DNA of 64,000 nucleotides. It comes from Algoriphagus aquimarinus (GTDB lineage Bacteria; Bacteroidota; Bacteroidia; Cytophagales; Cyclobacteriaceae). The notes under the pieces were generated by a model. It was not told where the DNA came from, made no database searches, and worked only from the letters and a program-made list of their open reading frames with translations. Made by a program: the position numbers and the translations under genes. Of the stretch, positions 4,339-19,673 are shown piece by piece. Positions within the stretch are counted from its first letter, which is position 1. Each line of letters starts with the position of its first letter. The stretch lies in NCBI RefSeq assembly GCF_007997215.1, contig NZ_VORW01000023.1:1-64000 (forward strand). The letters run 5' to 3'.

Positions 4339-4352
4339 ACAGACGAATGTAA

Positions 4353-4862
4353 ATGCCAAAAGACAAAATCAGCAAGGAAATCGAAGCAAAGTTCGGAAAT
4401 CATCTCAGGTCACGCGTGAATGGCATCCTGATAGAAGACGGAAAAATCCTGATGATCAAACATTTAATGGGAAATGGCAAGATCATGTGGTCTGTTCCCG
4501 GTGGTGGAATGCATTTTGGACACAATGCATCTGAAAATTTAATACGAGAGTTTTCTGAGGAAACAGGCCTAGATATAGAAGTAAAAGACTATCTTTTCGT
4601 CCATGAATACCTTGCGGCACCACTTCATGCGATGGAACATTTCTTTAGTGTGGAAAAAATTGGGGGGAATTTAACAGTAGGTACGGATCCTGAGCTCTAT
4701 GCAGATTCTCAAATTATCGAAGAAGTCACTTGGATGAGCATAAATGAAATCCGATCATTGCCTAATGAAGCCCTTCATCAAATCTTTTGGGGAATTAAAT
4801 CCCTTGAGGACTTAGTATTGTTGCGAGGATATTTTAATTTTGAAAATAATTCTCTAAAATAG
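4353..4862 (+). CDS. NUDIX hydrolase
   Basis: 169-residue hydrolase that should cleave a nucleoside-diphosphate-linked substrate; the substrate cannot be told from sequence. The NUDIX box begins at GGMHFG (about residue 50) and contains IREFSEETG, so the catalytic REXXEE core is intact. The upstream box position that is usually Glu is His here. A C-terminal helix (INEIRSLPNEALHQIFW) is typical of this group. Divergent from the RecD-like helicase with only 14 bases between, so the two must share overlapping promoter regions. Confidence 0.85.
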   Translation: MPKDKISKEIEAKFGNHLRSRVNGILIEDGKILMIKHLMGNGKIMWSVPGGGMHFGHNASENLIREFSEETGLDIEVKDYLFVHEYLAAPLHAMEHFFSVEKIGGNLTVGTDPELYADSQIIEEVTWMSINEIRSLPNEALHQIFWGIKSLEDLVLLRGYFNFENNSLK

Positions 4863-4910
4863 CACGATTTAAAACCTTCAACCTTACCCAGATTCTTAAA
4901 ATTTTAGCAA

Positions 4911-5492
4911 ATGAATTTATCAAAAGTACTATCCTTAGTCTTCTTAGTAGTTGCACTTGGTCTTGGCTACCTTCTCTGGAAAGGTGTTGACGACGTAGTT
5001 GAAGGCGAGAAAAGAATTGCTCTCATAGAAGCAGCAATCATCGAAAAATTGCAAATGCTTAGAGATGCTGAGTTGGCGTTTCAAGCTTCTAATGGTAGGT
5101 ATGCCGCGAACTGGAATGAATTGAAAACATTTATCGCATCTGGTCAGATTTGGCTTGTCCAAAGAACTGAATCAACTAAACTTCTTGACTACGGTAAGGA
5201 AGAAACTACTGTAACATTCGATACACTTGGTTCCGTACCAGTAATCGATTCTCTATTCAACGAAAGAAAATATCCTGATTTCAATCTAGAGGCGCTAGCA
5301 GTAGTTCCAGGTTCTGGTGGAAAACAATTCGAATTCTTCGCTGACAAAGTGGAAAGAAACTCTTATGAAGTCTCTGTTTTTGAGATTAGAGATCCTGCTC
5401 CAGTAAATCCAAACAGAAGATTGAACAACAACGAAAAAGCCTTGAAAGTAGGTTCAAGAACAGATGCCTCTACAGAGGGTAACTGGAAATAA
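4911..5492 (+). CDS. Conserved membrane-anchored protein, pilin-like outline
   Basis: 193 residues, function unknown. One N-terminal membrane helix (about 6-24) is followed by a long helix (AIIEKLQMLRDAELAFQASNGRYA) and a WNELKTFIASG element, then beta-rich sequence. That outline, one membrane helix running into a helix ending in a YAANW-like turn, resembles type IV pilin and pseudopilin proteins. However, there is no prepilin peptidase site and no assembly genes nearby. Only 11 bases before the DUF3822 gene, so probably co-transcribed with it. Family identity remains open. Confidence 0.65.
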   Translation: MNLSKVLSLVFLVVALGLGYLLWKGVDDVVEGEKRIALIEAAIIEKLQMLRDAELAFQASNGRYAANWNELKTFIASGQIWLVQRTESTKLLDYGKEETTVTFDTLGSVPVIDSLFNERKYPDFNLEALAVVPGSGGKQFEFFADKVERNSYEVSVFEIRDPAPVNPNRRLNNNEKALKVGSRTDASTEGNWK

Positions 5493-5503
5493 TACCTCCT
5501 ATT

Positions 5504-6322
5504 TTGGAAAGCAACCTTAAAGTATTTAAAAGTGATAGGTTTGATGTGGAAGACGCAGCAAGCCTATCACTTTTTTTATATCCTGATTCCTTATTCATTT
5601 TTGCAAAGGATAAGAACCAGTCGAATATTGGTATTCACGAATACATAAACTTCAACTGGGCTTCTTTGGAACAGCTGCTGACTTCTGATCATCTACTGAG
5701 AACAGACCTACCAGCGAAGATCTATCTGCATCAACCTGAATTCAGCCTTGTTCCTGGTGTTTTATTTCAACCTGGTCAAGAAGCTACTTATTTAGCCTTT
5801 GCATCAGAGCCACAAGCGAACACAAGCTATTTCAACACTCCTCTAGACAGCAACAACCTTCAGGTTCTATCTTGCATCTCAGGCAAGCTAAAGAAGACAC
5901 TGGAAGCTCGCTTTTCTGACCTGACATTCCATCACGGATCTGTTTGTTTCCTTTCTTATCTATTCAAAGAAAGATTTAACCTAATCGGGCAGGAGATCTT
6001 AGTCAGCATATTTGGAAATCAAATCTATGCAGCCGCATTTTCCAATCAGGAACTTGCCGTCTTCAATATCTTCTCTATTGACTCCAAAGAAGATATTTTG
6101 AAATATGCCTTGGTCCTTATCGATCAATTGAAATTTGATCGGAACCATGTACGCATTAGCATCTTTGGTGCAACAAATGAAAGTGGTATTACTGAAGATT
6201 GGGGAAAGGAATACTTTCACAATTTCCGCATGTTAACTCCCCATGCAAATCAGAATTTCACTCATGGATTCAAGCATTTGAAATCAGTCAATCTATTTGA
6301 GACTAATTGGCAATTTGATTAA
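5504..6322 (+). CDS. DUF3822 family protein
   Basis: 272 residues matching the DUF3822 family by its outline: an actin/hexokinase-like fold with paired LFLYPDSLFIFAKD and ISIFGNQIYAAAFSNQELAVFN strands, and a conserved position just upstream of coaD. Its biochemical role is unknown; in many Bacteroidota rsmD lies between it and coaD, but rsmD is absent here. No early ATG exists in frame, so TTG at 5504 (11 bases after the previous stop) is taken as the start. The tight spacing with the preceding membrane protein suggests one operon. Confidence 0.75.
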   Translation: MESNLKVFKSDRFDVEDAASLSLFLYPDSLFIFAKDKNQSNIGIHEYINFNWASLEQLLTSDHLLRTDLPAKIYLHQPEFSLVPGVLFQPGQEATYLAFASEPQANTSYFNTPLDSNNLQVLSCISGKLKKTLEARFSDLTFHHGSVCFLSYLFKERFNLIGQEILVSIFGNQIYAAAFSNQELAVFNIFSIDSKEDILKYALVLIDQLKFDRNHVRISIFGATNESGITEDWGKEYFHNFRMLTPHANQNFTHGFKHLKSVNLFETNWQFD

Positions 6323-6425
6323 ACCATGAAACCATCGCAACTCACGCTAAACATTCAACACTCGTGCAATGATTAGTTTGGTGCTCATAGGTTTCAGGTG
6401 CTCAAAGAATAAATAAAATAATCAC

Positions 6426-6881
6426 ATGAAAAAAATTGCCATTTTCCCTGGCTCTTTCGATCCTTACACACTAGGTCATCACGATATTGTGATGAGAAGC
6501 CTGGATCTATTCGATGAAGTGATTATCGGCATTGGCTACAATTCGACGAAGAAATCTAGATACTTTGAAATCGACGTAATGGTAGCAAAAGTAGAATCTG
6601 TGTATGAAAACATCCCTGGCGTAAAGGTGATTGTTTACAATGAATTGACCTCTACCCTAGCCAAAAAGCATAACGCGAAATTTCTGATCAGAGGACTGAG
6701 AAACACGACAGATTTCGAATACGAGAATACAATCAGCCAAATGAACCGGTACTTAAATACCGAGTTGGAGACAGTTTTCTTGATCACTTCACCTAGATAT
6801 GCTGCGATCAGCTCCACGATTATCCGAGAAGTGCACCGCTTTGGTGGTGATGTATCAGAATTCCTACCTTACAATATTTGA
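6426..6881 (+). CDS. coaD: Pantetheine-phosphate adenylyltransferase
   Basis: Penultimate enzyme of coenzyme A synthesis: it joins 4'-phosphopantetheine and ATP to give dephospho-CoA and pyrophosphate. 151 residues, the usual bacterial size. Evident motifs: AIFPGSFDPYTLGHHDI near the start (the T/HxGH nucleotidyltransferase motif, here TLGHH), LIRGLRNTTDFEYE in the middle, and ISSTIIREV for the C-terminal ISS-R element. Convergent with the NUDIX gene to its right; the two coding regions overlap by 13 bases at their stops. Confidence 0.97.
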   Translation: MKKIAIFPGSFDPYTLGHHDIVMRSLDLFDEVIIGIGYNSTKKSRYFEIDVMVAKVESVYENIPGVKVIVYNELTSTLAKKHNAKFLIRGLRNTTDFEYENTISQMNRYLNTELETVFLITSPRYAAISSTIIREVHRFGGDVSEFLPYNI

Positions 6882-7555
6882 GGCTTTAGATGTGTCTTGA
6901 TGTATTGCTTGAAAAGAAAGCGCATTGATGGATAAGAATTGATCAAGGCAATTTTAGCATCCCCCTCATAAAACCATCGGATATCGTCTATTCCCTCCTC
7001 CTTTTGCGGAGCCATTTGGGAATCATTCAAACAATCCATTTCAAACCAGTACGTTTTCTTCAGAATACTCTTTCGATCTTGAGTATAGGTGTGCCAGGTA
7101 TTGCAGATCTGCCTACCTGCTTTTACTTTTATAGCGCATTCCTCCTCCACTTCCCGTACCGCACATTGCTTGGGTGTCTCTCCTTTTTCGAACTTTCCCT
7201 TCGGAAAATCCCACTTTCCAAGACGGAAAATAAGGAGCATCTTATCTTTTTTAGAAACTACGCCGCCAGCAGCTTTGATGATTGAAAAACGACTTTTTAC
7301 AAACTTTTTCAAAGCAGCTTTATCCTTTGTCACCAAAGTAATTGAATCTAGATCCTTCAGTTTTCGAGTCCTGAGGGTATATAGCAATCGGATAATCAGA
7401 TCATGAGAAGGTTCATGAAATAGGATATCATCTTTCCATGGTAAATGGGCAGGCAAGTCTTCTTGCTGGTGATAAACAGTTTCATAAGACTTCGAAGGAT
7501 TTAGCTCCTCATAGCTTATCAGATCAAATGGCTTGTCATTCACGAAGATTCTCAT
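6869..7555 (-). CDS. NUDIX hydrolase with N-terminal extension
   Basis: 228 residues. The N-terminal ~95 residues form a small unassigned domain (MRIFVNDKPFDLI..., then SITLVTKDKAALKKFVKSRF). The NUDIX domain follows, with box GKFEKGETPKQCAVREVEEE (about residues 138-157); the REVEEE core is intact and the following Gly is replaced by Cys. Found in many Bacteroidota divergently next to pyrE, as here; its substrate is unknown. The last four codons overlap the coaD stop on the other strand. A pyrE-linked nucleotide role is only a guess from location. Confidence 0.88.
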   Translation of the reverse strand: MRIFVNDKPFDLISYEELNPSKSYETVYHQQEDLPAHLPWKDDILFHEPSHDLIIRLLYTLRTRKLKDLDSITLVTKDKAALKKFVKSRFSIIKAAGGVVSKKDKMLLIFRLGKWDFPKGKFEKGETPKQCAVREVEEECAIKVKAGRQICNTWHTYTQDRKSILKKTYWFEMDCLNDSQMAPQKEEGIDDIRWFYEGDAKIALINSYPSMRFLFKQYIKTHLKPQIL

Positions 7556-7654
7556 GGGTGAATCAAAGTTTTGGCATGGTTGGAATTAGTCAAAAGTGCA
7601 TATTTTTTTCACTTGCTACAACCTTAGCCGAACTTTATCGCTTATTTTTAAGCC

Positions 7655-8299
7655 ATGGAAATTTTAGACGCGAACGTGGCTGCTGAAGTAGCCGACAAAT
7701 TATTAGAAATTCAAGCCATCAGATTACAACCTGAAAAGCCTTTCACATGGGCTTCTGGCTGGAAATCACCTATTTACTGTGACAACAGGCTTTCCCTATC
7801 TTTTCCTAAGGTAAGGACGATGATCAAGGAGCAGTTGGTGAAAAGCATTCAGCATTATTTTCCAAACGTGGAAGCAATTGCAGGAGTCGCTACTGCCGGG
7901 ATTCCTCAGGGAGCTTTGCTGGCAAATGATCTTGATCTACCCTTCATCTATGTACGATCCAAAGCCAAAGGGCATGGAATGGAAAACATGATCGAGGGAA
8001 AGGTGGTGCCTGGCCAAAAGGTAGTCGTAGTGGAAGATTTAGTCTCTACGGGAGGTAGCTCACTCAAAGCAACTCAAGACTTGTTAGACGCAGGATTTGA
8101 TGTACTAGGGATGGTTGCCATTTTCAGCTACGGATTTGATGTGGCCGCTCAAAACTTCGAGAAAGCAGGTGTGAAACTTGTCTGTCTTAGCCATTATGAA
8201 GCGATGCTCCCAATGGCTGTTCAGAGAAAATATATTACAGGAGATACGCTGGAATCCCTTTCGGAATGGAGAAAAGACCCAGCAATCTGGAAACAATAA
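7655..8299 (+). CDS. pyrE: Orotate phosphoribosyltransferase
   Basis: Converts orotate and PRPP to orotidine 5'-monophosphate in pyrimidine synthesis, as a cytosolic dimer. 214 residues, normal length. Seen: FTWASGWKSPIYCDNR (substrate/dimer motif, about 30-45), IAGVATAGIPQGALLA, the mobile loop VRSKAKGHGMENMIEG, and the PRPP-binding motif VVVVEDLVSTGGSS (about 124-137). Start ATG at 7655 agrees with the family N-terminus (LLEIQAIRL). Divergent from the NUDIX gene and closed by a strong hairpin. Confidence 0.97.
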   Translation: MEILDANVAAEVADKLLEIQAIRLQPEKPFTWASGWKSPIYCDNRLSLSFPKVRTMIKEQLVKSIQHYFPNVEAIAGVATAGIPQGALLANDLDLPFIYVRSKAKGHGMENMIEGKVVPGQKVVVVEDLVSTGGSSLKATQDLLDAGFDVLGMVAIFSYGFDVAAQNFEKAGVKLVCLSHYEAMLPMAVQRKYITGDTLESLSEWRKDPAIWKQ

Positions 8300-8310
8300 G
8301 AACTTTTAGA

Positions 8311-8350
8311 ACGAACAAAGGCAGCGAGAAATCACTGCCTTTGTTCGTTT
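8311..8350. terminator. Bidirectional terminator between pyrE and the ligase cluster
   Basis: Perfect 14-base arms (ACGAACAAAGGCAG at 8311-8324 and its complement at 8335-8348) around a 10-base loop, followed by T residues on both strands. It separates pyrE (+) from the convergent minus-strand gene ending at 8364 and can serve both. Confidence 0.85.
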
Positions 8351-8363
8351 ATGGGTAAGGGCA

Positions 8364-9554
8364 CTACTTCTCAAAAAGCCCAATAGAACCACCTACCCAG
8401 TCTTTGTCCTTGTTGAATTTCACACCGATCATCTCGCCTCGACTGAGTCTCACTAGATTCCCCACCAAGGTAGGTTTCTCATCTTTCTCTGGCCAAAGAG
8501 CTAGAATTCTCACTTCTACTTTCACCTTGCCCTCAGGCGATTGGATCACAGGAGCATAGGCTACTTTCTTTTGGAGAATGTACAAATCCTTATCCTTTAC
8601 AGCTTTTACATCAGCTTTGGTCACATTGAAAATCACGCCTGATCCTGAAAAAGAAAACAAAGGCTTCAAGACATAATTCTCCAAATCCTCCGGTATCTCT
8701 TCCATCTCGCTTAGCAACTTTGTCTCAATAAAGTATTGCCCTTGCATATAGGGCAATATAAATTTGGAAATCCTCGTGTACCAGTTCGGATGTCCTGCCC
8801 ACTCCACATCCAGCTTTTCTTCAAAACTGAACTGTAGCTTCAAGTCCTTCCGAAGATCCAACTCATCAAAAATCACTCGGTTATAAATCCGCTTGATCCT
8901 CACTTTTTCTCCAGCTTCATTTCTATAAAAAAGTTGCGCCCCCTCTTTGATCACTTCCGTCACGCAGATGATTGGAATGCCTAGATCTCTATGGCAATAG
9001 TAAAAGTCAATCTTTGTATTCTGCTTCTCCGGCTCAATTTCCAATAGAACCACTTCTGAAGTATCGTTGTCATTCAGCACAACTTCCTTCAACTTAGTCA
9101 AATAGGCCTCTTCATCCATTCCCGACAGATAAGGAGTCATTTCTGAAGTAAAAGGATAGTACTTCAGAATCTTCCGAAAGAGATTGAATTGGAAATTAAA
9201 GATGGAAGGGAATCCTTGCACCTCAATGAGCTTTGGCATAATCCGCCCATTCACTTCACAAATACCGAAGTCAATCGCCATAAACTGCGTATGGGCATCT
9301 TCATTCGGTACCGCAGTATTTAGATCTATAGCTCGCTGAGTAATTGCCTTAAAATCTTGCTTTCTTACAAAAGCACACACTTCTTCGCAAGCTTCTTCCA
9401 GTTGCTTTTTCACTTCATCTGGAATGAAAAAAGGAGTTTCTGCTACTCTGAAGGTGGGTGAATAATTGAAATCCGCAGCTAAATCTTCAAGAAAAGCCTG
9501 ATATTTTTCTATTGAAAATTCAGTGTTAAACTGAGCTCTGCGGGATACTATCAT
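8364..9554 (-). CDS. ATP-grasp-like ligase, permuted motif order
   Basis: 396 residues, last gene of a five-gene minus-strand set. Near 290-306 lies YVLKPLFSFSGSGV, the lysine plus glycine-rich loop that closes over ATP in ATP-grasp enzymes. It is followed by VEVRILAL and GNLVRLSRG, which fit metal-binding and nucleotide strands. An acidic element, PKLIEVQGFPS (about 107-117), lies ahead of the loop, the order seen in circularly permuted ATP-grasp and glutathionylspermidine-synthase-like proteins. This suggests carboxylate activation as acyl phosphate followed by amide formation. No substrate can be named. Six bases from the upstream amidotransferase gene, so surely co-expressed with it. Confidence 0.65.
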   Translation of the reverse strand: MIVSRRAQFNTEFSIEKYQAFLEDLAADFNYSPTFRVAETPFFIPDEVKKQLEEACEEVCAFVRKQDFKAITQRAIDLNTAVPNEDAHTQFMAIDFGICEVNGRIMPKLIEVQGFPSIFNFQFNLFRKILKYYPFTSEMTPYLSGMDEEAYLTKLKEVVLNDNDTSEVVLLEIEPEKQNTKIDFYYCHRDLGIPIICVTEVIKEGAQLFYRNEAGEKVRIKRIYNRVIFDELDLRKDLKLQFSFEEKLDVEWAGHPNWYTRISKFILPYMQGQYFIETKLLSEMEEIPEDLENYVLKPLFSFSGSGVIFNVTKADVKAVKDKDLYILQKKVAYAPVIQSPEGKVKVEVRILALWPEKDEKPTLVGNLVRLSRGEMIGVKFNKDKDWVGGSIGLFEK

Positions 9555-9560
9555 AAAGGA

Positions 9561-10391
9561 TTAAATTAAAGTAAGCGATTTCGAAGCTTTGGCTTTCTGA
9601 ATGGATTGCTCAAGAAAATTTGGAATCAGCGTTTCATTCGTTTTATAGATTTTGTCTTCATCTATCAAATGCTCAAGCATCTTTCTAAACTTTATTTTTC
9701 CCTTGACCGCTATGATTTTCTCTTTGACCTCCGCTTTTTTCAAATGTGCTAAAAAGCTTACGGGGTCAGCTTCAGGATGAAATTGAGTCCCCACTATTTC
9801 ATCTGTAAACCGAATGGCCATGATTGCACGCTCGTATTCCACATGATCCCTGATCTTTTCCAATGCGATGATTTTTGCTCCCAGCACCTTAAATTTCTTC
9901 ATATCCGGCTGAATCACCTGATAGTCTCTAGAATCAATTGCCCAGAAAGGGTTGTCTAGGTTTTGCAACAAAGCATCCTTTTGTCCTTCTGCAGTCTTGT
10001 GAACAGACATCACTCCGAAAGAAGTGGATTTGCGCTTGGTGAGTGTACCAAGGCCAAAATGCCTGCACGCCATTTGGAATGAATGACAAATTAATAGAAT
10101 GTGTTTTTTATGATTATGGTTTTGATTCCAAATCCATATCTGATCTAGAAAATCATAATATTTCAAATCCCAATTTCCATCACCTTCCTCAGGACTGCCT
10201 GGACCACCAGTCGAGATAAACATATCATAGTCCCGAATCTCAGGAATCTCTGCCTTACCTCTTACATCAAATATTTTATAAGTCAACTGACCTTCAAATC
10301 TGGCTACGATATCCTTGATACAACGCATCCCCTGATTGGGCTCGCCATCGTACATATCTAATATAGCCAAGTTCAATTTCCTCTTTCCCAC
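9561..10391 (-). CDS. Class I glutamine amidotransferase domain protein
   Basis: 276 residues with a class I (triad) amidotransferase fold. MFISTGGPGSPEEGDG gives the oxyanion strand near 58-73, LLICHSFQMACRHFGLG the nucleophile cysteine (about 102), and GTQFHPEADP the His/Glu pair (about 202-209). All triad residues are present. About 60 residues after the domain form a C-terminal helical tail. There is no fused synthetase domain, so it either feeds ammonia to the neighbouring ligases or, like gamma-glutamyl hydrolases of this fold, cleaves a glutamyl amide. Both readings fit a peptide/amide pathway with the adjoining ATP-grasp and YbdK-like genes. Confidence 0.82.
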   Translation of the reverse strand: MGKRKLNLAILDMYDGEPNQGMRCIKDIVARFEGQLTYKIFDVRGKAEIPEIRDYDMFISTGGPGSPEEGDGNWDLKYYDFLDQIWIWNQNHNHKKHILLICHSFQMACRHFGLGTLTKRKSTSFGVMSVHKTAEGQKDALLQNLDNPFWAIDSRDYQVIQPDMKKFKVLGAKIIALEKIRDHVEYERAIMAIRFTDEIVGTQFHPEADPVSFLAHLKKAEVKEKIIAVKGKIKFRKMLEHLIDEDKIYKTNETLIPNFLEQSIQKAKASKSLTLI

Positions 10392-10606
10392 GTTGCCTGT
10401 TTGGTTTATTTAGCCCGCAAAGGTAATCAAAGCACTTAAACCTGAAGTATACATTAGAAAATCTACTACGGTCTCAACCCGCTTTAAAATCAGACGTATT
10501 ACTTCACTTTTCGAACCCACCGTAGCGGAGCTACGCCGCGATCTCCAAAGTGACTGATTTTCTTGCAGTTTGAGACCTCGATACGAATCCTAATGCATAA
10601 TCCAGG

Positions 10607-11725
10607 TTAAATCCCCTCTGTAAACTTTGAAGTGATCATATCTACGACTTTTTTCAGATCCTGTGTCTTTTCAAATACTGCCAATTGCTGATCTGCACCA
10701 GTGCCATTTTTTAATATTTGATGCACATACTCAATTTCTTCTCTACTACCCAGTTCATCTACTACGTCATCTACAAAATCCAGAAGTTCCATAATCAACT
10801 CATAGGTAGGCACCTCTATTTTCCTACCAAAATCAATCAATTTACCCTCAATACCATTCCTCGCAGCACGGAATTTATTTTCACGAATTAAGGCAATTCT
10901 GTAGATATTAAAACTGGTATTGCTCAGCAGAAGTCTATACAGCTTGGCAACAACGGCTTGGATCAAAGCCACTATGCAATTCGTCTCATTCACAGTGAGA
11001 CACATATCGCAAATACGAAATTCTATTGTGCTGAAAAATGGGTGAATTCTAAGATCCCACCATATTTTCTTAGGGTTATCAATACAATTGGTTTTCACCA
11101 AGGTCTCCAGATAATTATCATAGGACTGAACAGAATCAAAATACTCAGGCAATCCAGTTCGCGGAAATTTGGCAAAAATCTTAGCTCTAAACGCTTTAAA
11201 ACCTGTATTTCTACCTTCCCAAAATGGTGAGTTGGTGGTCAAAGCATAAATATGAGGTAGAAAATAGCAGGCTTGATTCATCAGCTGGAGAGCCACTTCC
11301 CTATTATCAATTCCCACATGCACATGGAGCCCGAAAATCAGATTCGATCTGGCAATGTCTTTTAATTCATCTACAATAGTATGGTATCTGGGATCGTCTG
11401 TGATTTCCTGATCTTGCCATCGTGCAAATGGATGTGTACTGGCTGCTCCTACCAATAAACCCTGATTTGCGGCCAACTCCGAGATTTTATTCCTGAGATA
11501 GGCTACTTCTTTACGCGTCTCTGACACATTTTCGCAGACATTAGTACCCACTTCCACTACTGATTGATGCATTTCAGCTTTCACCTGTTCCTTCAGTGTG
11601 ATTTTCCCACCCTCCACTATTTTAGACATGTGCGAGCGTAGATCCCTGGTTTCAGGATCTATAATCTGATATTCTTCTTCTACTCCTAAGGTAAATCTGG
11701 GAAGTTTTTTGAGGGATGAGGCCAT
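10607..11725 (-). CDS. YbdK-type carboxylate-amine ligase (GCS2 family)
   Basis: 372 residues, full length for the glutamate-cysteine-ligase-2 family of which E. coli YbdK is the weakly active prototype. Visible: FTLGVEEEYQIIDPET (metal/ATP-binding glutamates, about 11-26), EMHQSVVEVGTNVCEN, the HVHVGIDNREVAL signature in the middle, and IHPFFSTIEFRICDMCLTV, the conserved arginine strand. It should use ATP to join an amino acid side-chain or alpha carboxylate to an amine. The true substrates are unknown in this clade. 23 bases downstream of the ATP-grasp gene, and 215 bases separate it from the amidotransferase gene, so a second promoter may lie there. Confidence 0.9.
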   Translation of the reverse strand: MASSLKKLPRFTLGVEEEYQIIDPETRDLRSHMSKIVEGGKITLKEQVKAEMHQSVVEVGTNVCENVSETRKEVAYLRNKISELAANQGLLVGAASTHPFARWQDQEITDDPRYHTIVDELKDIARSNLIFGLHVHVGIDNREVALQLMNQACYFLPHIYALTTNSPFWEGRNTGFKAFRAKIFAKFPRTGLPEYFDSVQSYDNYLETLVKTNCIDNPKKIWWDLRIHPFFSTIEFRICDMCLTVNETNCIVALIQAVVAKLYRLLLSNTSFNIYRIALIRENKFRAARNGIEGKLIDFGRKIEVPTYELIMELLDFVDDVVDELGSREEIEYVHQILKNGTGADQQLAVFEKTQDLKKVVDMITSKFTEGI

Positions 11726-11748
11726 GGTTATTTGTTAAGCTAAAAATT

Positions 11749-12705
11749 CTAAAATCTCTTGGTACTGCTTACAGCATCTCTCATAAATGTACCCCAGGTT
11801 AGATTCATTTTCCCAGGTTTCTGAGCTTTAGCATAGCTAATCGCCATTTTCGCAGCTTCCTCCACTACCCATTCAAAATTCTCTTGGCCTACCGAATTCA
11901 CATCCGCATCTGGAGCAGGATTCCCAAAATCAATCGCATAAGGAATGCCATCCTTCACCGCAAACTCCACTGTATTGAAATCATATCCAAGTCCATGGCA
12001 AAGGCGAAGGGTATAATCTTTAACCGTAGCCAATAACTTCTTAGACGTAGGTGGCCCATCTACCACATAGCGCAAATGATGGGGATTTCGTGGTTCGTAA
12101 GGCATGATTTTCACTGCTTTGCCTCCTAGACAATACACCCTGAAATACTCTTCAAACACGATTTCTTCTTGAAGCATCATTACAAGCTGTCCAGTCTCAG
12201 GATGCGTTCTGAAAAATTCTGCTTTATCCTCAAGGCGATAAACGTTCTTCCAACCACCACCGGCGTAAGGCTTCATATAAGCTGGAAACCCTACGTAGTC
12301 GAATATACCTTCCCAATCCAAAGGGGCTACAAGGTTCCTAAATGATTTGCTCGTAGTATCGTCAGGATGCTTCGCTGAAGGCAAAATAACTGTTTTGGGA
12401 AGTGGAACTCCCAATTGATCTGCAAGCGCATTGTTAAAAAATTTATCATCAGCACTCCACCAAAATGGATTATTGATAACCGCAGTCCCAGTCAAAGCTG
12501 CATTTTTCAAATACGCTCTATAGAAAGGCACATCTTGAGAAATCCTGTCTATAATAACGGCATATTCTGACAGGTGATTTTGAATCACTTTGTCAATTTG
12601 TACCGCCTCAGCAATGATTCCTTTCTCTGCTTTTTGATTTACCCGGTCAATAAATGCCTGAGGAAAAGTGTCCTCCATACCGAAAAGTATTCCTATTTTT
12701 TTCAT
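11749..12705 (-). CDS. ATP-grasp ligase
   Basis: 318 residues, D-Ala-D-Ala-ligase/RimK-like fold. N-terminal Rossmann-like start KKIGILFGMEDTF; YVGFPAYMKPYAGGGWKNVYR supplies the ATP lysine and glycine-rich loop (about 136-156); MMLQEEIVFEEYFRVYCLGG the adenine hinge and metal strand; NTVEFAVKDGIPYAIDFGNPAPD the magnesium-binding end (canonical E-x-N appears as D-x-G-N). Likely ligates a carboxylate to an amino acid or amine. Translationally close to the YbdK-like gene (23 bases). Together they give the cluster two clear amide-forming enzymes plus the permuted one at its end. Confidence 0.85.
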   Translation of the reverse strand: MKKIGILFGMEDTFPQAFIDRVNQKAEKGIIAEAVQIDKVIQNHLSEYAVIIDRISQDVPFYRAYLKNAALTGTAVINNPFWWSADDKFFNNALADQLGVPLPKTVILPSAKHPDDTTSKSFRNLVAPLDWEGIFDYVGFPAYMKPYAGGGWKNVYRLEDKAEFFRTHPETGQLVMMLQEEIVFEEYFRVYCLGGKAVKIMPYEPRNPHHLRYVVDGPPTSKKLLATVKDYTLRLCHGLGYDFNTVEFAVKDGIPYAIDFGNPAPDADVNSVGQENFEWVVEEAAKMAISYAKAQKPGKMNLTWGTFMRDAVSSTKRF

Positions 12706-12847
12706 ATGATTATATTTTTTTTTGAATGGCCATATGCCCGCCCATCAGACGCCAGTCGGACGGAGAATCTCGCACATCTTTTAATCATTTCAATGTGTGA
12801 TTTTATAACCATGCTCGATTTCATATCTAAATGGATAATAAGTTGAC

Positions 12848-13561
12848 CTAGTTAAACTTGATTCTGCTGAGGTAGTGAGGGAACATTTCCTTCCATACCT
12901 CCCAATCATGCGCTCGATTTTGACGAACATCAAACCAATGAGCTATATTTTTTGCTTTAAGAGTTTCATGGAGTTTGATATTGGCATCGTAGCAGATATC
13001 CCAATTAGAGGTTCCCAAGACTATATCCATCTTCCATAGTTCTTGGTCATTTAAATTAGGAAGGTATTCGAGTGGATTATTGTAAAAGATGTCATCATGT
13101 TGATATCCATCCATGAAGCTCCGAATATCAAATGCACCCGACATGCTAAATAGGTGGCTAACATAGCCAGGATGCCTAAAAGCAAAATTTGCAGCATGAT
13201 AACCACCGAAACTGCACCCTGCCATTACAACTTTACCAACAGGAGTATTCAGGCGAATACGTTCCACTACCTCATGACAAATCATTTTGTCATAAGCTAC
13301 GTGATGCTGAATTCTCTGATGAGGATGAATACTTTTATTGTAAAAACTATCGGCATCATTACTTATGGGACAATAGATTTTTAACAAACCCTGCTCGATA
13401 TACCATTGGGCAGATTTCACTAGACCCATATCGCGATTTTCGTGAAAGGACCCTTTCGAAGTGGGGAAAATCACTACCGGGTATCCCGCATGTCCAAACA
13501 CCAACATTTCCACGTCCCGTTGCAGGTTAGGAGAAAACCATTTTAAATACTCTTCTTTCAT
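12848..13561 (-). CDS. Compact alpha/beta-hydrolase esterase (COG4947-like)
   Basis: 237 residues, no signal peptide, so cytosolic. Nucleophile elbow AGCSFGGYHA (Ser about 119); a probable acid in GTSNWDICYDAN and the catalytic His in RAHDWEVWKEMFP at the C-terminus complete the triad. The N-terminus (WFSPNLQRDVEMLVFGHAGYPVVIFPTSKG) is characteristic of this esterase group. First gene of the set, 142 bases before the ATP-grasp gene. In ligase clusters such enzymes may hydrolyse or transfer an activated product; that is inference. A promoter is expected between 13562 and 13679, but none was recognised. Confidence 0.85.
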   Translation of the reverse strand: MKEEYLKWFSPNLQRDVEMLVFGHAGYPVVIFPTSKGSFHENRDMGLVKSAQWYIEQGLLKIYCPISNDADSFYNKSIHPHQRIQHHVAYDKMICHEVVERIRLNTPVGKVVMAGCSFGGYHAANFAFRHPGYVSHLFSMSGAFDIRSFMDGYQHDDIFYNNPLEYLPNLNDQELWKMDIVLGTSNWDICYDANIKLHETLKAKNIAHWFDVRQNRAHDWEVWKEMFPHYLSRIKFN

Positions 13562-13679
13562 AGATAAAATTTCAACTAACAGTGAAAAATCAGAGGTTTT
13601 CTCTCACTTTCAAATACTAGTCAAAATTTCCTAAAAAGAAAAGTAACTGAGGTTAGCTTATTAATAAAAAATTAAGCTG

Positions 13680-14192
13680 CTACCTATTTAAATTCAGATC
13701 TGGCTGATTTTTAAGAACATAATTTCTAATCAAATAGGAAATAAAACTTACGGAAAAAAAACCTACTACAAGCCATTTAGATGTGGTGAAAAAAGAAGCA
13801 ATAAATCCTAAAACCTGATTTTCTACAGGGAATTTGATCAATAGAATAGTCACCATCAGATTTTCACACAAGTCTAAAATAAAAACTAAGAATGGGAAAA
13901 TTGCCAGAGCTTTGCTTTTCATGAACCGGACCATGAAAGCACTAAAGAGTAATAGGTATACTACCATGTAAGCTGTATCTAAAGCCCAAATCACAATCAG
14001 GTAATTCTCTCTGACTTTTGGACCCATACTTTTTAAAGAATCATAAGCTTCATTAGCTGAATAAGCAAAGCGTACGTCCAGAGCTAAATCTCTGGGCATA
14101 AAGTAGTTGAGAAGAAGATTAAACAGAATAAATAAGACAAGTAAGACAAGTAAACTTGAAGACTTACTTAGTTTTCTAAAAATTTCTTTCAT
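13680..14192 (-). CDS. Four-helix membrane protein, unknown function
   Basis: 170 residues with four hydrophobic segments (roughly 13-31, 65-88, 95-118 and 128-153) and a periplasm-like loop after the first helix. No catalytic motif. It lies between the ligase cluster and the carbonic-anhydrase-like gene, on the same strand but with about 90-120-base gaps on each side, so its link to either is uncertain. Similar small predicted membrane proteins are annotated as hypothetical in the phylum. Confidence 0.65.
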   Translation of the reverse strand: MKEIFRKLSKSSSLLVLLVLFILFNLLLNYFMPRDLALDVRFAYSANEAYDSLKSMGPKVRENYLIVIWALDTAYMVVYLLLFSAFMVRFMKSKALAIFPFLVFILDLCENLMVTILLIKFPVENQVLGFIASFFTTSKWLVVGFFSVSFISYLIRNYVLKNQPDLNLNR

Positions 14193-14285
14193 AAAAAAAA
14201 TCTAATAAAAATGAATTATGATCAATTTAGTTGATTTTCGTCAAAAATTAACAGCAGACCGTTTTTCTGAACGTAGAAACTAGGA

Positions 14286-14798
14286 TCAGGTTGTATACCA
14301 ACTCGCATACATAGGATAGTTTCTGGCGGTTCTTGAGATTACTTCATCCATTTCCGCACCTGTGTCCTTCACTTTTCTGGCTGGAATACCTGCATAAATT
14401 GAATTTGGTTCTACCACTGTGTTTGCCAATACTACAGCGCCAGCGGCGATGACAGCTCCAGAATGAACCACCGCTCCATCCATCACTATTGCCCCCATTC
14501 CTACTAATACTCGATCATGAATTGTACAGCCATGAACTATTGCATTATGTGCAATTGAAACTTCATTACCTATATAAGTGCCAGCTTTCTGATAGGAACA
14601 ATGGATCACAGCACCATCTTGGATATTGGAATTGTTGCCAATTCGAATTTCATGAACATCTCCACGAATTACAGCATTGAACCAAACTGTGCAATTGTCT
14701 CCCATAATCACATCACCTACAATCGTAGCGTTTGGTGCTAACCAACAACTCGTCCCAAAGGTGGGAGTTTTATTATTCACATCAAGTAACAGTGCCAT
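14286..14798 (-). CDS. Gamma-carbonic-anhydrase-like hexapeptide-repeat protein
   Basis: 170 residues of left-handed beta-helix repeats (NATIVGDVIMGDNCTVW, VIRGDVHEIRIGNNSNIQDG). The metal-site histidines of the gamma-CA family are visible in AVIHCSYQ and in the IAHNAIVHGC segment. The conserved C-terminal YAGIPARKVK and a final helix are present. Whether it is an active carbonic anhydrase is not certain; many such proteins (YrdA/PaaY-like) are weak. The ATG at 14798 (MALLLDV) is chosen over 14831 because it gives the family length and N-terminus. Confidence 0.9.
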   Translation of the reverse strand: MALLLDVNNKTPTFGTSCWLAPNATIVGDVIMGDNCTVWFNAVIRGDVHEIRIGNNSNIQDGAVIHCSYQKAGTYIGNEVSIAHNAIVHGCTIHDRVLVGMGAIVMDGAVVHSGAVIAAGAVVLANTVVEPNSIYAGIPARKVKDTGAEMDEVISRTARNYPMYASWYTT

Positions 14799-14860
14799 TT
14801 TTCGGAAGACAAATTTCAGTTCATTAATCACTATCTAAAAAACAAAGTTTCACTTTTTCT

Positions 14861-14890
14861 TTTGAGTAATGAACTTTTTGGCAAACTTTG
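14861..14890 (+). promoter_or_regulatory. Possible Bacteroidota sigma-A promoter of the YceI gene
   Basis: TTTG at 14861-14864 and AAACTTTG at 14883-14890, 18 bases apart, resemble the phylum's -33 TTTG and -7 TAnnTTTG consensus (7 of 8 in the -7 box). It is about 45 bases ahead of the chosen ATG at 14936. Confidence 0.4.
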
Positions 14891-14935
14891 AGTTTACATG
14901 TATATACACACAAATTTGAAAACCAACTCAGAACA

Positions 14936-15658
14936 ATGAAAACTATCAAACCAACAGGCCTAATTCTAGCAGCCACATTGATGGCGTTTGCATGTAGCAA
15001 ACCAGCCGAAACTGTAGAAGCAACTGATGCTCAAGAAGTAGCATCTTCCGAAGGAACTACATTGACTTTGAATCCAGCAGCATCAAAAATTGCTTGGATG
15101 GGTTACAAACCTACTGGTCAGCATAATGGCATAATTCCTGCTACCACGGGTACTGTCGTAGTAAACGGCACAGAAGTGACCGGCGGATCATTCACATTTG
15201 ACATCACTGCACTTGAAATCCACGATATGGAAGCCGGTACAGAGATGCATGGCAAAATGAGCACACACTTGCTATCAGATGATTTCTTCGATGCAGCTAA
15301 TCACCCAACTGCAACTTTCGAAATCACTTCAGTTGAGCCATTTAAAGCTGAAGACGTAGTTACAGACGAAGAGCAATTTGCTTCTGACAACACGCCTAAA
15401 TCTAACAGCGAACTTTCTCCTGAAGCTCCTAATTACTGGGTAAGCGGAAACTTGACTATGAGAGGAACCACTAAAAACATCACGTTCCCTGCTACAATCA
15501 ATGTAGGCGATGGAACTGTAACTGCTAAAGCTGGTTTCAACATCGATAGAACTGATTGGGGACTTGCTTATGGAGACGAAGCTACTGTAGCTGACAAAGC
15601 AAAAGACAAATTCGTTTACAACAATGTAGGATTAGTATTGGACGTCAAAGCTAATTAA
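14936..15658 (+). CDS. YceI family lipoprotein
   Basis: 240-residue exported lipid-binding protein. A lipoprotein signal (LILAATLMAFAC, Cys about 19) is followed by a short acidic linker and a YceI lipocalin-like barrel. The barrel is marked by SKIAWMGYKPTGQHNG, GGSFTFDITALEI, HLLSDDFFDAANHPTATFEI, NLTMRGTTKNITFPA and FNIDRTDWGLAYG. The barrel is thought to bind isoprenoid lipids in other members. It carries an acidic insertion (VVTDEEQFASDNTP) near residue 145. The ATG at 14936 is chosen because it opens directly on the signal sequence; 14888 would add an unrelated leader. Confidence 0.92.
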   Translation: MKTIKPTGLILAATLMAFACSKPAETVEATDAQEVASSEGTTLTLNPAASKIAWMGYKPTGQHNGIIPATTGTVVVNGTEVTGGSFTFDITALEIHDMEAGTEMHGKMSTHLLSDDFFDAANHPTATFEITSVEPFKAEDVVTDEEQFASDNTPKSNSELSPEAPNYWVSGNLTMRGTTKNITFPATINVGDGTVTAKAGFNIDRTDWGLAYGDEATVADKAKDKFVYNNVGLVLDVKAN

Positions 15659-15678
15659 TTCATAACAAACTCATTTGA

Positions 15679-15710
15679 AAGAGGAATTCTAACAGGATTC
15701 CTCTTTTTTT
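15679..15710 (+). terminator. Terminator after the YceI gene
   Basis: AGAGGAAT at 15680-15687 pairs with ATTCCTCT at 15697-15704 and is followed by a run of T. It ends ten bases before the pabB ATG, so pabB must be read from readthrough or from a promoter inside this short gap. Confidence 0.85.
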
Positions 15711-15719
15711 GTGCTACCA

Positions 15720-16970
15720 ATGCAAAGCACCTCCTTCATCTACCCCATCCCAGATCCCTCATGGATCGAAAAACTTTGCAGATGGGCAGACGTGCACTTT
15801 GACTTTTTTGCCTTTACAAACGGGAATGGACAGCACTATCCAGAAGAACCTTTTGCTACACGGTTCTTTGCGGGAAATATTCAATTATCTAAGACAGATG
15901 TCTGGAGTGTATCTACCAACTTTAAAAAAGTCGGAATCATCGGATACGACTTTAAAAATCGACTAGAAAAGCTCAAAAGTGAGAACAAACCATTTTTCGA
16001 GCTGCCTGAGATCTGTTTCTTCCAACCCTCTTTTTCTTTAGCGTTTGACGGGGAAAACATCTGTTCTGAAAATGAATTGTCTGATGATTTCTGGAAAGAA
16101 ATAGATAGAACCAACCTTCCAATCTCAACAAACACAGCCTGTCTTGTCAAGCCAAAAATCTCTAAGGAGAAATACCTGAAAACGGTAAAAAAAATTCAGG
16201 ATCACATCATTGAAGGCAATACCTATGAGAGCAATTTTTGCCAAGCTTATTCCGGATCATTTGAAACTTGGGATCCCATTGCAGCTTATTTCAAGTTGAA
16301 CGAGCTTTCTCCCATGCCCCTTTCATTCCTTTTCAAAGCTAAGTCTCAGTGGATAGTTTCAGCATCTCCAGAACGCTACTTGAAAAGAGCAGGTACCAAA
16401 ATCATCGCGCAACCTATCAAAGGAACTATCAAACGCGGGAAATCTACCCTTGAAGATGAGAGTAACAGAAAAACACTGGCCAATAGTGAAAAGGAACAAG
16501 CCGAAAATCTAATGATCACCGATCTGATGCGGAATGATCTTTCGAAGGTTTCAAAAACAGGATCAGTGAAAGTCAAAGAATTATTCGGCATTTATCCTCT
16601 GCCTAGAGTATTTCAGATGATCAGCACAATAGTTTCTGAGCTGAAAGAAGATGTAAGCTTCTCTGATATCATCCAAGCCTCATTCCCAATGGGAAGTATG
16701 ACTGGAGCTCCAAAGATCCGTACCATGGAAATCATCGAGGAACTAGAGAGCTTTAAGAGAGGTTGGTTTTCTGGAGCTTTTGGGGTGATTGAAGAGAATG
16801 GAGATTTTGATTTCTCAGTCATCATTCGTAGCATAATAGCTGATCTGGAAGTGAAAAAACTCTACTTTGGAGTGGGCAGTGCTATCACTTACGATGCAAA
16901 TGCCGCTCAGGAATATGAGGAATGCAATCTCAAAGCCCAGGCAATCCTAGAAATACTCGGTGGGAAATGA
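15720..16970 (+). CDS. pabB: Chorismate-binding enzyme, probable aminodeoxychorismate synthase component I
   Basis: 416 residues of the TrpE/PabB family, which aminate chorismate. Signature segments: SASPERYLKRAGTKIIAQPI followed by KGTIKRG, ITDLMRNDLSKVS, the active-site FPMGSMTGAPKIRTMEIIEE, and GWFSGAFGVI plus FDFSVIIRS. Length and the lack of a long N-terminal domain fit PabB (folate pathway) better than TrpE, which is usually larger and in a trp operon. ATG at 15720 is used; a GTG at 15711 overlaps the terminator. The stop overlaps the start of dinB by 11 bases. Confidence 0.85.
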   Translation: MQSTSFIYPIPDPSWIEKLCRWADVHFDFFAFTNGNGQHYPEEPFATRFFAGNIQLSKTDVWSVSTNFKKVGIIGYDFKNRLEKLKSENKPFFELPEICFFQPSFSLAFDGENICSENELSDDFWKEIDRTNLPISTNTACLVKPKISKEKYLKTVKKIQDHIIEGNTYESNFCQAYSGSFETWDPIAAYFKLNELSPMPLSFLFKAKSQWIVSASPERYLKRAGTKIIAQPIKGTIKRGKSTLEDESNRKTLANSEKEQAENLMITDLMRNDLSKVSKTGSVKVKELFGIYPLPRVFQMISTIVSELKEDVSFSDIIQASFPMGSMTGAPKIRTMEIIEELESFKRGWFSGAFGVIEENGDFDFSVIIRSIIADLEVKKLYFGVGSAITYDANAAQEYEECNLKAQAILEILGGK

Positions 16971-18063
16971 AAACGAAATATTAGCCCCTCCTATTCGGAA
17001 AATCATCCATGTGGACATGGACGCATTTTACGCATCGGTGGAGCAGCTTGATCATCCCGAGTGGCGAGGAAAACCTCTTGTCGTGGGTGGAAATGCAGCA
17101 AGAGGCGTAGTTGCAGCGGCAAGTTATGAAGCAAGAAAGTTCGGCGTGTATTCTGCCATGCCTTCTGTCTTGGCTGCTCGGAAATGCCCTCAACTTATTT
17201 TTGCTCCTGCGAGATTTGATCGATACAAGGAGATTTCCAGTCAGATCCGGGAAGTTTTTTACGAATACACCGACCTAGTTGAGCCACTTTCGCTGGACGA
17301 GGCATTTATGGATGTGACGGAAAACAAAAAAGGTCTAAAGTCAGCCATTCTGATAGCCAAGCAAATCCGCCAAAAGATCAAAGAGCGTACAGGATTGAAT
17401 GCTTCGGCAGGTGTCTCCTATAATAAGTTCTTAGCTAAAATCGCCTCTGACCTGAACAAGCCTAATGGTCAGGCAGTGATTCTTCCTGAAGAAGCTGAGG
17501 GGTTTTTAGAAAAATTACCCATCAAAAAATTCTTCGGGATAGGGAAAGTAACGGCAGAGAAAATGAGTGGCCTGGGAATACACAATGGAAAAGACCTCAA
17601 ACAATTTTCCCTGCAGTATCTCACCCGAAAGTTTGGCAAATCAGGCATCCATTATTTCAACATCGTTCGAGGCATTCACCTTTCCGAAGTGCAGCCACAT
17701 CGGATTCGCAAATCTCTCAGTGCAGAGAATACGTTTGAAAAAGATCTCTTGGCGATGGAAGATCTACTTTCTGAATTGAAGCAAATCTGTGATGAGCTAA
17801 TCAAGCGAATTAAAAAGTCGGGGATCAAAGGCAGGACTGTAACCTTGAAAATCAAATTCTCAGATTTCACCCAGCAAACCCGAAGCAAAACTCAGGAACA
17901 ATATCCAGATGAAGAGCTTATCTGGGAGATATCCCAAGAACTTCTGGCTCAAGAACCCTTCGAGAAATCAATTCGCTTACTAGGGCTTGGCATCTCCAAT
18001 CTCAATATCATCGAAGAACATCAGCACTTTGGAGAACAGCTCAAGATTCCATTTGAAGTATAG
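16960..18063 (+). CDS. dinB: DNA polymerase IV (Y family)
   Basis: 367 residues, error-prone translesion polymerase. HVDMDAFYASVEQ (catalytic Asp, about 18-30), RGKPLVVGG, AASYEARKFGVYSAMP, EPLSLDEAFMDVT (second acidic pair, about 104-116), SYNKFLAKIASDLNKPNGQ and the GIGKVT helix-hairpin-helix are all present, followed by a little-finger domain. The start is a GTG at 16960 overlapping the pabB stop, implying translational coupling; no ATG is available before the catalytic strand. The beta-clamp motif at the C-terminus was not clearly identified. Confidence 0.93.
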   Translation: MGNENEILAPPIRKIIHVDMDAFYASVEQLDHPEWRGKPLVVGGNAARGVVAAASYEARKFGVYSAMPSVLAARKCPQLIFAPARFDRYKEISSQIREVFYEYTDLVEPLSLDEAFMDVTENKKGLKSAILIAKQIRQKIKERTGLNASAGVSYNKFLAKIASDLNKPNGQAVILPEEAEGFLEKLPIKKFFGIGKVTAEKMSGLGIHNGKDLKQFSLQYLTRKFGKSGIHYFNIVRGIHLSEVQPHRIRKSLSAENTFEKDLLAMEDLLSELKQICDELIKRIKKSGIKGRTVTLKIKFSDFTQQTRSKTQEQYPDEELIWEISQELLAQEPFEKSIRLLGLGISNLNIIEEHQHFGEQLKIPFEV

Positions 18064-18197
18064 GAAGAGTAATTTAAACAGGGCTATTTTACCTATTAGC
18101 GAATATTAGGCTTATTAACAAAATAAAAGAATCATACTTCCTGCCATTTTGTCCGCATTTTAGTAATTTCGCCATCCGAAAGAAGGAAAAAAGGTAC

Positions 18198-19673
18198 ATG
18201 ACCAATTTAATTGCAGACATAGATATCATCTCAGCAGAGGAAGCTCAAGCATGCGACTTCAAAATCACTGCAGATGAAAACACAGGCAAATCCCGAAAAC
18301 TCTACATTGAGAGCTACGGTTGCGCCATGAATTTTGCGGATTCAGAGATTGTAGCGGCTATCATGAAAGAAGGTGGATTTGATACCACTTCTGATTTTTA
18401 TCAAGCAGATGTCATTTTTCTCAACACCTGCTCCATCCGCGAAAAAGCCGAGCAAACAGTACGAAAGCGTCTCACTGATTTTCAAAGAGCCAAAAGAAGT
18501 AAGCCCGGAATGACAATCGGCGTACTGGGATGCATGGCTGAGCGACTAAAAGAGAAGCTTCTCGAAGAAGAAAAAATAGTGGATATCGTCGTAGGTCCGG
18601 ATGCTTACAGAGATCTTCCAAATCTGCTTTCAGTAGCCGAAGACGGTCAGAAAGCGGTAAACACATTTCTTTCCCGCGAGGAAACTTACGCAGACATCTC
18701 TCCTGTTCGTCTGAATTCCAATGGAGTAACAGCATTCGTCTCTATCATGCGTGGTTGTGACAACATGTGTTCTTTTTGTGTCGTGCCTTTCACTCGTGGT
18801 AGAGAAAGAAGCCGTGACCCCTATTCCATCGTCAACGAAGCAAAGGATCTTTTCTCAAGAGGATTTAAGGAGGTTACCCTACTTGGACAAAATGTAGACA
18901 GTTACAAATGGTCTCCTGAAGAGAATAACAAAGCCCGGCTAAACAAAAAAGAAGATGAATCAACTACAGTTATCAACTTTGCCAATTTATTGGAAATGGT
19001 TGCCTTGGTAGACCCAAATCTTCGGGTGCGCTTCTCTACTTCACATCCCAAAGACATCACAGATGAGGTATTGCACACGATAAAGAAGTATGATAATATC
19101 TGCAAATACATCCATTTGCCAGCTCAAAGTGGCAATTCTCGTGTGTTGGAGATGATGAATAGAACCTACGATCGTGAATGGTACTTGGAGAGAGTTTCCA
19201 AAATCAGAGAGATCCTTGGTGAAGAATGTGGAATCTCTTCCGACATGATCACGGGATTCTGCAGCGAAACAGAAGAAGAACATCAGGACACACTTTCCTT
19301 GATGGACATAGTAAAATTCGATTTTTCTTACATGTTCTACTACTCCGAAAGACCTGGGACTTTGGCAGCAAAGAAATACCCAGATGATATTTCTCTAGAA
19401 ATAAAAAAACGAAGACTGTCTGACGTCATCGCAAAGCAGAGTTCAACTTCTCTAATGAGAAACAAACTAGACCTCGGGAAAGAGCAGATAATACTAGTAG
19501 AAGGAGCTTCGAAGAAATCCGCAAATGACTTCAAAGGCAGAAACTCCGCAAATAAAGTAGTGATCGTACCTGCTGGAAACTATTCCAAAGGTGATTACCT
19601 AAAGGTGAAAATCATTGATTGCACTCCAGCAACATTGTTTGGTGAAGTGATTGAAATAAACCCAAAAAATTAA
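18198..19673 (+). CDS. miaB: tRNA-2-methylthio-N6-dimethylallyladenosine synthase
   Basis: Radical-SAM methylthiotransferase that adds a methylthio group to i6A37 of tRNA. 491 residues. The N-terminal UPF0004 domain carries its three cluster cysteines in [25 protein letters not shown] and VLGCMAERL. The radical SAM motif [20 protein letters not shown] (CxxxCxxC) is near residue 186-205. The C-terminal TRAM domain ends with FGEVIEI. Its stop overlaps the start of the next gene by one base (TAATG), so the two are co-translated. Confidence 0.96.

Follow-up and report, generated by a model that had tools for sequence, protein, structure and literature searches.

The stretch of DNA analysed here, which we call the window, comprises 64,000 nucleotides and makes up almost the entire length of its 64 kb contig (C15, NZ_VORW01000023.1) in the 5.16 Mb genome of Algoriphagus aquimarinus. 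It carries a run of five genes, named E, G, C, A and X in their order of transcription, and we consider it fairly probable that together they encode an assembly line that works in the cytosol, without a carrier, and yields a small peptide-like metabolite. We favour a peptide-like metabolite of the cytosol because the set would supply two to four ligase steps and three hydrolase folds, with no transporter or carrier recurring alongside it. The ATP-grasp identity of G, the GCS2 identity of C, the permuted fold of X and the conservation of the operon are computed results. A preliminary description, made from the letters of the window, had proposed a single pathway that makes, trims or releases a small peptide-like metabolite or modifies a protein end, and that proposal gains support here. 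Our literature search found no paper describing the E-G-C-A-X set, Iyer et al. 2009, the likeliest earlier description, lying outside that search; it is said to have predicted operons joining ATP-grasp, GCS2-like, glutamine amidotransferase (GATase) and hydrolase genes in general.

The preliminary description had let the single-pathway reading turn on two points, namely that the five families co-occur in other genomes and that X has an ATP-grasp fold. The first of these is borne out. Among 145 relatives searched at E <= 0.001 for X and E <= 1e-20 for the other four, X is present in 63, G in 63, A in 65, C in 60 and E in 65, and X and G occur in the identical 63 genomes. The phi coefficients against X are 0.94 for A, 0.93 for C, 0.94 for E and 0.86 for f7, a further ATP-grasp gene that often adjoins the set. 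In some relatives the genes are no longer linked and are nevertheless kept together on different contigs (for example G089, G108, G123 and G137, in all of which C is absent), and at these thresholds some near-complete genomes of the same genus lack all five (for example G009, G018, G021 and G036). Across a wider sample of 316 genomes from the phylum, X was found in 97 and G in 113, with both in 94, X only in three and G only in 19. Co-occurrence of the families is thus far beyond chance, in samples that are phylogenetically related. The plasmids searched gave no match for X or G.

Gene order is similarly stable. We compared 80 named loci, the best of 583 confirmed stretches encoding X relatives, in which the most distant relatives are under-represented and genes were called as the longest open reading frames (ORFs) of at least 80 or 90 codons without curation. 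Full E-G-C-A-X order on one strand is kept in 68 of them, the remainder being G-A-X (5), C-A-X (3), G-C-A-X (1), A-X (1) and X alone (2), and some of these partial loci sit on short contigs. The titles of all 80 are Bacteroidota, and they include Algoriphagus, Flavobacterium, Gelidibacter, Polaribacter, Pedobacter, Spirosoma, Larkinella, Lewinella, Saprospiraceae and Chitinophagales; the nearest named X relatives come from Algoriphagus species, at 91% identity.

In the window itself the five ORFs were all confirmed on one strand (Table 1). The gaps between them had been described as mostly short, which, measured between ORF ends, holds for G-C (23 bp) and A-X (6 bp) and fails for E-G (142 bp) and C-A (215 bp). 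The latter two are much longer than in the nearest named relative (L076), where the four gaps, in the same order, are 23, 22, 44 and 6 bp; over the 80 loci the medians are 31.5, 57, 43.5 and 14 bp. It had also been noted that no carrier, precursor or transporter gene is adjacent; no transporter or carrier-protein family recurs in the distant loci compared, and median gaps of 14-57 bp are too short to hold a precursor gene inside a typical operon. The set is larger than first described, f7, an M17 peptidase and an esterase often being adjacent, and also more flexible, in that some lineages do without C and a different permuted ATP-grasp can take over from X.

Table 1. Genes of the set and repeats close to them, in window positions
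Feature	Position	Strand	Description
E	12848..13561	-	Cytosolic alpha/beta hydrolase (PF00561/PF00756-like) with GCSFGG elbow; first gene of the set
G	11749..12705	-	ATP-grasp ligase with R2K-clade features (K145, loop K153)
C	10607..11725	-	Predicted YbdK/GCS2 carboxylate-amine (gamma-glutamyl-type) ligase; facultative member
A	9561..10391	-	Class I GATase-fold enzyme; C-H-E triad, divergent elbow (ICHSFQ)
X	8364..9554	-	Circularly permuted ATP-grasp of glutathione synthetase / YgiC fold, as modelled
Inverted repeat	8311..8348		Perfect 14-bp arms, loop of 10, terminator type; read from the sequence
Interspersed repeat	10436..10600		Hairpin in the C-A gap; not counted as part of the pathway

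X and the family that takes its place

The window copy of X has no Pfam match at E <= 1, and phmmer and NCBIfam gave nothing useful. Its AlphaFold2 model, made with 32 family members, has a mean predicted local distance difference test (pLDDT) score of 90.8, and a Foldseek search of the PDB with this model returned yeast glutathione synthetase bound to gamma-glutamyl-cysteine as the best match (1m0w_B, 1.3e-15), followed by a GspS-like protein (7.4e-15), YgiC (1.2e-12) and Cp1B (1.7e-10), with YjfC, E. coli GspS and the human and soybean (homo)glutathione synthetases also found. All 23 matches at E <= 0.001 are glutathione synthetases, GspS/YgiC/YjfC-like proteins, glutathione-synthetase-like effectors or Cp1B. 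As judged from this model, X folds as a circularly permuted ATP-grasp of the glutathione synthetase/GspS type, and the second point on which the single-pathway reading had been made to turn therefore also came out in its favour.

The preliminary description had seen ATP-grasp-like elements in permuted order in X, and the fold agrees with this. The element D95...E111-x-Q113 precedes the ATP-binding KPLFSF(A/S)G loop (K297). X shares with the glutathione synthetase/GspS proteins (1m0w, YgiC, YjfC, GspS and Cp1B) its overall fold, the permuted order of its elements, an ATP-site Lys and the metal-site Asp/Glu, roles which we take these single residues to have. It differs from them in several respects. 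Identity is at most 15% in the Foldseek matches with E <= 0.001, the genomic partners are other ones, and the metal-site motif is ExQ instead of ExN, invariantly so in both member alignments (A1 and A6). A profile alignment sets the KPLFSF(A/S)G loop against KPIFSREG of YgiC (E about 0.01), with Ala or Ser where YgiC has Glu. Sequence profiles relate the two groups weakly: PF03738 (GSP_synth) matches 17 of 32 X members with a best E of 5.4e-4, and hhalign of the X profile against an alignment of E. coli YgiC, YjfC and GspS gave Prob 27% and E 7e-4. X is, on this evidence, a new branch of the glutathione-synthetase fold, unannotated in bacteria, and its many invariant residues suggest that it is catalytic. 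Within the wider fold, fungal Cp1B, of the E-64 pathway, has been experimentally shown to form a pseudodipeptide (PMC12568646, in excerpt).

Two distant genomes (L189 7237-8763 and L190 5400-6842) have a divergent X (31-34% identity), adjoined in both by a gene from the same family. In L189 this gene encodes an Amidohydro_3 amidohydrolase (PF07969), another candidate trimming enzyme.

The 19 genomes with G and without X are largely accounted for by a second family, k2. Of their loci 16 were read, and in 12 of these k2 follows G. A then follows k2 in 11 (the exception being L183), E precedes G in nine, an esterase (k3; one scanned, PF00756) follows in six and f7 in two, and no match to C was found in the 12 loci as read. 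The k2 proteins have about 450-480 residues, and the two members scanned pass PF14403, the circularly permuted ATP-grasp type 2 family, at 37.3 and 32.5 bits against a cut-off of 32. Replacement of X by k2 was checked through a separate k2 search of the 316 genomes, which found it in 16: 15 are G-positive and X-negative, and the other, a weaker match (370 bits), is X-positive. With k2 covering 15 of the 19 G-only genomes, X or k2 occurs together with G in 109 genomes, the two are discordant in three and four, and neither is present in 200. The position next to G and A can thus be occupied by either of two permuted ATP-grasp families. An hhalign comparison of X with k2 yielded nothing usable (Prob 1%), leaving common ancestry unsupported beyond the fold.

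The four G genomes that have neither X nor k2 carry G relatives of 35-44% identity, with no A, C or E match in the stretches read, and probably represent another G subfamily. Distant G relatives in this identity range (L185, L186, L187 and L188) stand in unrelated contexts, for example near a squalene/phytoene-synthase-like gene or a zinc-uptake gene, which suggests a second subfamily.

The remaining enzymes

G is the most conserved of the five proteins, with 66-87% identity to 14 aligned relatives. Its sequence matches in Pfam and NCBIfam are limited to weak ones to RimK and R2K, and its model matches D-Ala-D-Ala ligases, RimK, ArgX/LysX and graspetide ligases, including PsnB and MdnB, at similar E-values. 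With motif positions assigned by sequence and not by structure, K145 and K153 are invariant in 25 members (YMKPxAGGGWKxVY), and no invariant Lys lies in the linker between residues 93 and 144, where K104 is common. GWK stands in place of the GxG loop and the end motif is DxxN, compared with ExN in ATP-grasps. The preliminary description had credited both G and C with intact motifs, which overstates the case for G, with its DxxN and no GxG loop.

The R2K clade (CDC123, DUF4343) is defined by a strand-2 Lys, a second Lys or Arg in the next loop, the lack of a linker Lys and a degenerate GxG loop (PMC4431377, in excerpt). G agrees with this in its K145, on RAGNYA strand 2, its loop K153, its want of an invariant linker Lys and its degenerate GxG. 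R2K_2 matches were obtained at E <= 0.1 for 17 of 25 G members (best 8.9e-5); the window copy, at 13 bits, falls below the Pfam R2K_2 cut-off of 26.2. G is further set apart by its DxxN end motif, a one-residue shift comparable to which is described only for R2K.3 (ExGD) in the excerpted part of PMC4431377, and by its stable operon partnership with GCS2, A and X, in contrast to the sporadic families reported in that part. From its residues, G is best called R2K-like, short of filed membership.

Some G proteins have a C-terminal tail of 37-105 residues, more than half of which are Lys, Ala or Pro (L037, L051, L052, L065, L138, L141, L146 and L153). Taking tails with more than half of these residues over at least 35 positions, they are found in 4 of 15 (A2) and 4 of 25 (A7) aligned members, and two of 25 members match the histone H1-like HC2 family (PF07382-like). 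The tail is absent from the window copy and from the Algoriphagus and Flavobacterium copies measured.

If G and X were to add amino acids to a protein end or side chain, with A, E and M17 removing them, then the set would serve protein modification. The R2K-clade features of G are consistent with this, as the clade has been proposed to tag proteins (PMC4431377, in excerpt), and the Lys/Ala/Pro-rich tail of some members could act as a target or tether. We nonetheless consider protein modification rather improbable. No candidate target gene recurs among the neighbours in the distant loci compared, the tail is missing from precisely those Algoriphagus and Flavobacterium copies, and up to four different ligases would be many for one tag. 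M17 peptidases, moreover, act on short peptides.

The matches of G to PsnB and MdnB raise the further alternative that the ligases cyclise a genome-encoded precursor, as ATP-grasp ligases are described to do in the maturation of graspetides in Bacteroidetes (PMC8939145, in excerpt). This appears extremely improbable: with the median operon gaps at 14-57 bp, a precursor gene between the genes cannot be general (beyond the operon, ORFs shorter than 80 codons fell outside our search), neither a transporter nor a leader peptidase recurs in the distant loci compared, and such a system would not account for GCS2, M17 and permuted ATP-grasps as partners.

C passes the PRK13515 carboxylate-amine ligase model of NCBIfam (519.5 bits against a cut-off of 371) and PF04107 (GCS2; 196.5 bits against 21, 8e-58), and its profile matches YbdK (1r8g) at 1.7e-60. 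It is therefore predicted to be a YbdK-type GCS2 ligase. It differs from YbdK in its setting, since C stands in a conserved multi-ligase operon and no such partners accompany E. coli ybdK in the 7 kb read.

A matches PF00117 (42.7 bits against a cut-off of 22.8, 6e-11), and the full triad claimed for it as a class I amidotransferase is there (Cys102/His205/Glu207), with His and Glu invariant and Cys present in 15 of 16 aligned members. What did not survive closer inspection is its standing as an ordinary member of the class. The elbow consensus of class I amidotransferases is GxCxGxQ, and A lacks such a nucleophile elbow, reading ICHSFQ in 12 of the 16 members and ICHSxQ in 15. Its nearest profile match in the PDB is homoserine O-succinyltransferase (MetA). 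Given this unusual elbow, and since the nearest solved relatives are MetA acyltransferases, we favour hydrolysis or acyl transfer by A over ammonia supply. E, described beforehand as a cytosolic esterase, passes the cut-offs of both PF00561 and PF00756 and combines its GCSFGG elbow with a C-terminal HDW.

Together with the fold of X, these assignments invite comparison with glutathione. C could make a gamma-glutamyl dipeptide and X add a third residue. The gamma-glutamyl hydrolase would then be A, the Cys-Gly-type dipeptidase M17 and the S-formylglutathione-hydrolase-like esterase E. That the best structural match of X is the gamma-glutamyl-cysteine-bound yeast enzyme, that C belongs to the YbdK-type glutamate-cysteine ligase family and that M17 and esterase genes neighbour the operon in 27 of 80 loci all speak for such a thiol pathway. 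On the other hand, YbdK relatives are, to our knowledge, not proven makers of gamma-glutamyl-cysteine, G and f7 receive no role in it, C is absent in some lineages which keep G, A and X and is unmatched in the 12 k2 loci, and BshC, of the bacillithiol ligase family, is present in 140 of the 145 relatives whether they have the cluster or not. With BshC near-universal irrespective of the cluster, the main thiol need not come from it, and a replacement main thiol was ruled unlikely as the whole story. A glutathione-like thiol pathway in general we regard as unlikely.

Neighbouring genes and other features

Beside the operon, 27 of the 80 loci carry a module consisting of f7 (an ATP-grasp of about 400 residues), f8 (an M17 leucyl aminopeptidase) and f5 (a PF00756-type esterase), which in 26 of the 27 lies downstream of X on the opposite strand. 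The loci are titled Flavobacterium in 17 cases, the others being Arenibacter, Gelidibacter, Polaribacter and kin and one Chitinophagales metagenome-assembled genome (L145). In G119 the module stands head to head with G-C-A-X (L051), and in the genome of the window it is intact on another contig (C22, L161 7925-11722). f7 tracks the operon even when unlinked, with 55 of the 57 relatives that have it (of 145) being X-positive. Several minus-strand query references for f7, M17 and f5 lacked their first residue, which should leave the matches unaffected.

No transporter or carrier-protein family recurs across the distant loci compared. In 29 of 80 loci, most of them Flavobacterium, E is immediately preceded on its own strand by the gene for a protein of 132 residues with no Pfam match (f6; for example L089 3457-3855). 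Among the other upstream neighbours in Flavobacterium loci are a family resembling mechanosensitive channels (25 of 80) and one of OmpA proteins (15 of 80), neither of which is kept elsewhere. A Pfam scan of ten Flavobacterium-type neighbour families (mechanosensitive channel, thioesterase, OmpA, helicase, two oxidoreductases, a xylose-isomerase-like barrel, two domains of unknown function and one unmatched) led to none being accepted as a member. The neighbour family F5 was also rejected as a pathway gene; its window member (47452-48321) is a short-chain dehydrogenase, and the family, a chained BLAST family, is unrelated. F21, found between C and A in two genomes, is an HNH endonuclease and was taken as mobile, and a DegT aminotransferase gene, next to X in three genomes from a single family (L058-L060; one scanned), is not general. 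An anti-phage link was discarded after none of seven proteins, namely f7, k2 and those of the five genes, matched a PADLOC model at E <= 0.001.

Two repeats flank or interrupt the set in the window. The inverted repeat downstream of X lies between it and a convergent phosphoribosyltransferase gene (7655-8299); our pattern scan had a loop limit of 8, hence its omission of this repeat, with a loop of 10 bases. The repeat in the C-A gap folds as a hairpin (RNA fold z -3.9), has three partial relatives elsewhere in the genome at 72-83% identity and looks like a small interspersed element. An Rfam scan of positions 4000-20000 gave no match at the gathering score.

The proposed pathway and its meaning

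Several observations weigh against a single pathway made up of these genes. Of the 63 X-positive relatives, 4 lack C and 8 lack f7, so the parts are not all obligatory. One complete genome of the same genus (G065) has A (G065:C2:200630-201454) without X, G, C or E, and two large genomes (G109 and G124, with A on C4 and C1) keep A, a relative of E (36%) and f7 without X or G; in the A copy of G109 (L074) Ser replaces the catalytic Cys, as though the pathway had decayed or been repurposed. X stands alone in two of the 80 loci, and the k2 locus L183, on a contig of 10.9 kb, gave no match to A. At the level of the enzymes, X departs at two positions expected for catalysis, having ExQ and Ala/Ser for Glu, and the model of G is of moderate confidence only (pLDDT 79.5). 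Finally, many of the compared genomes are close kin and 17 of the 27 module loci are Flavobacterium, so that independence is overstated by the P values as well as by the counts.

Taken to their limit, such points would mean that the genes have separate functions and are side by side through vertical descent. The relatedness of many of the compared genomes and the fact that C, f7 and E are each missing somewhere are in keeping with this. It is, however, very unlikely in our view, given that G and X are kept together on different contigs and that k2 occupies the operon place of X where X is absent.

Returning to the assembly line for a peptide-like metabolite, C, G, X (or k2) and, where present, f7 would each use ATP to convert a carboxylate to an acyl phosphate and then join it to an amine to give an amide, going by the chemistry of their families, which for ATP-grasp ligases is also stated in PMC12568646 (in excerpt). 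Together they may form two to four successive amide bonds. G and a permuted ATP-grasp would be the minimal committed pair, with A nearly always present, and C may add a gamma-glutamyl-type unit in many lineages. A, unlike a standard glutaminase, would use its Cys-His-Glu triad for acyl hydrolysis or transfer on an amide or ester. An ester or acyl group may be hydrolysed or transferred by E and the PF00756 esterases (f5 and k3), and the M17 aminopeptidase could trim or recycle the peptide part. The carrier-free pathways to the pseudopeptides dapdiamide, cystargolide and E-64 likewise use successive stand-alone amide ligases and no nonribosomal peptide synthetase (PMC12568646, in excerpt); compared with what is given there, E-G-C-A-X differs in having no recurring transporter and in its spread over several classes of Bacteroidota.

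Occurrence in several classes of a single phylum is more suggestive of general metabolism than of an antibiotic. As a tentative suggestion, which could well prove mistaken, the product may be a peptide-type intracellular cofactor or stress metabolite found in several classes of Bacteroidota, made by up to four stand-alone ligases, with a committed step shared by the R2K-like G and either X or k2, which would be interchangeable, and with an altered metal site in X.

If the pathway has been read correctly, then X would be a new, previously unannotated bacterial branch of the glutathione-synthetase fold, and the natural swap of X and k2 within the same operon would narrow the reaction to what both families can do. 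The compact operon, whose genes are dispersed in some species and which some near-complete genomes within the genus lack altogether, offers ready-made comparisons. Several groups of a major bacterial phylum would then share a metabolite made without a ribosome, a nonribosomal peptide synthetase or a carrier protein, and the occurrence of G in 113 of the 316 genomes sampled gives the scale of that sharing.

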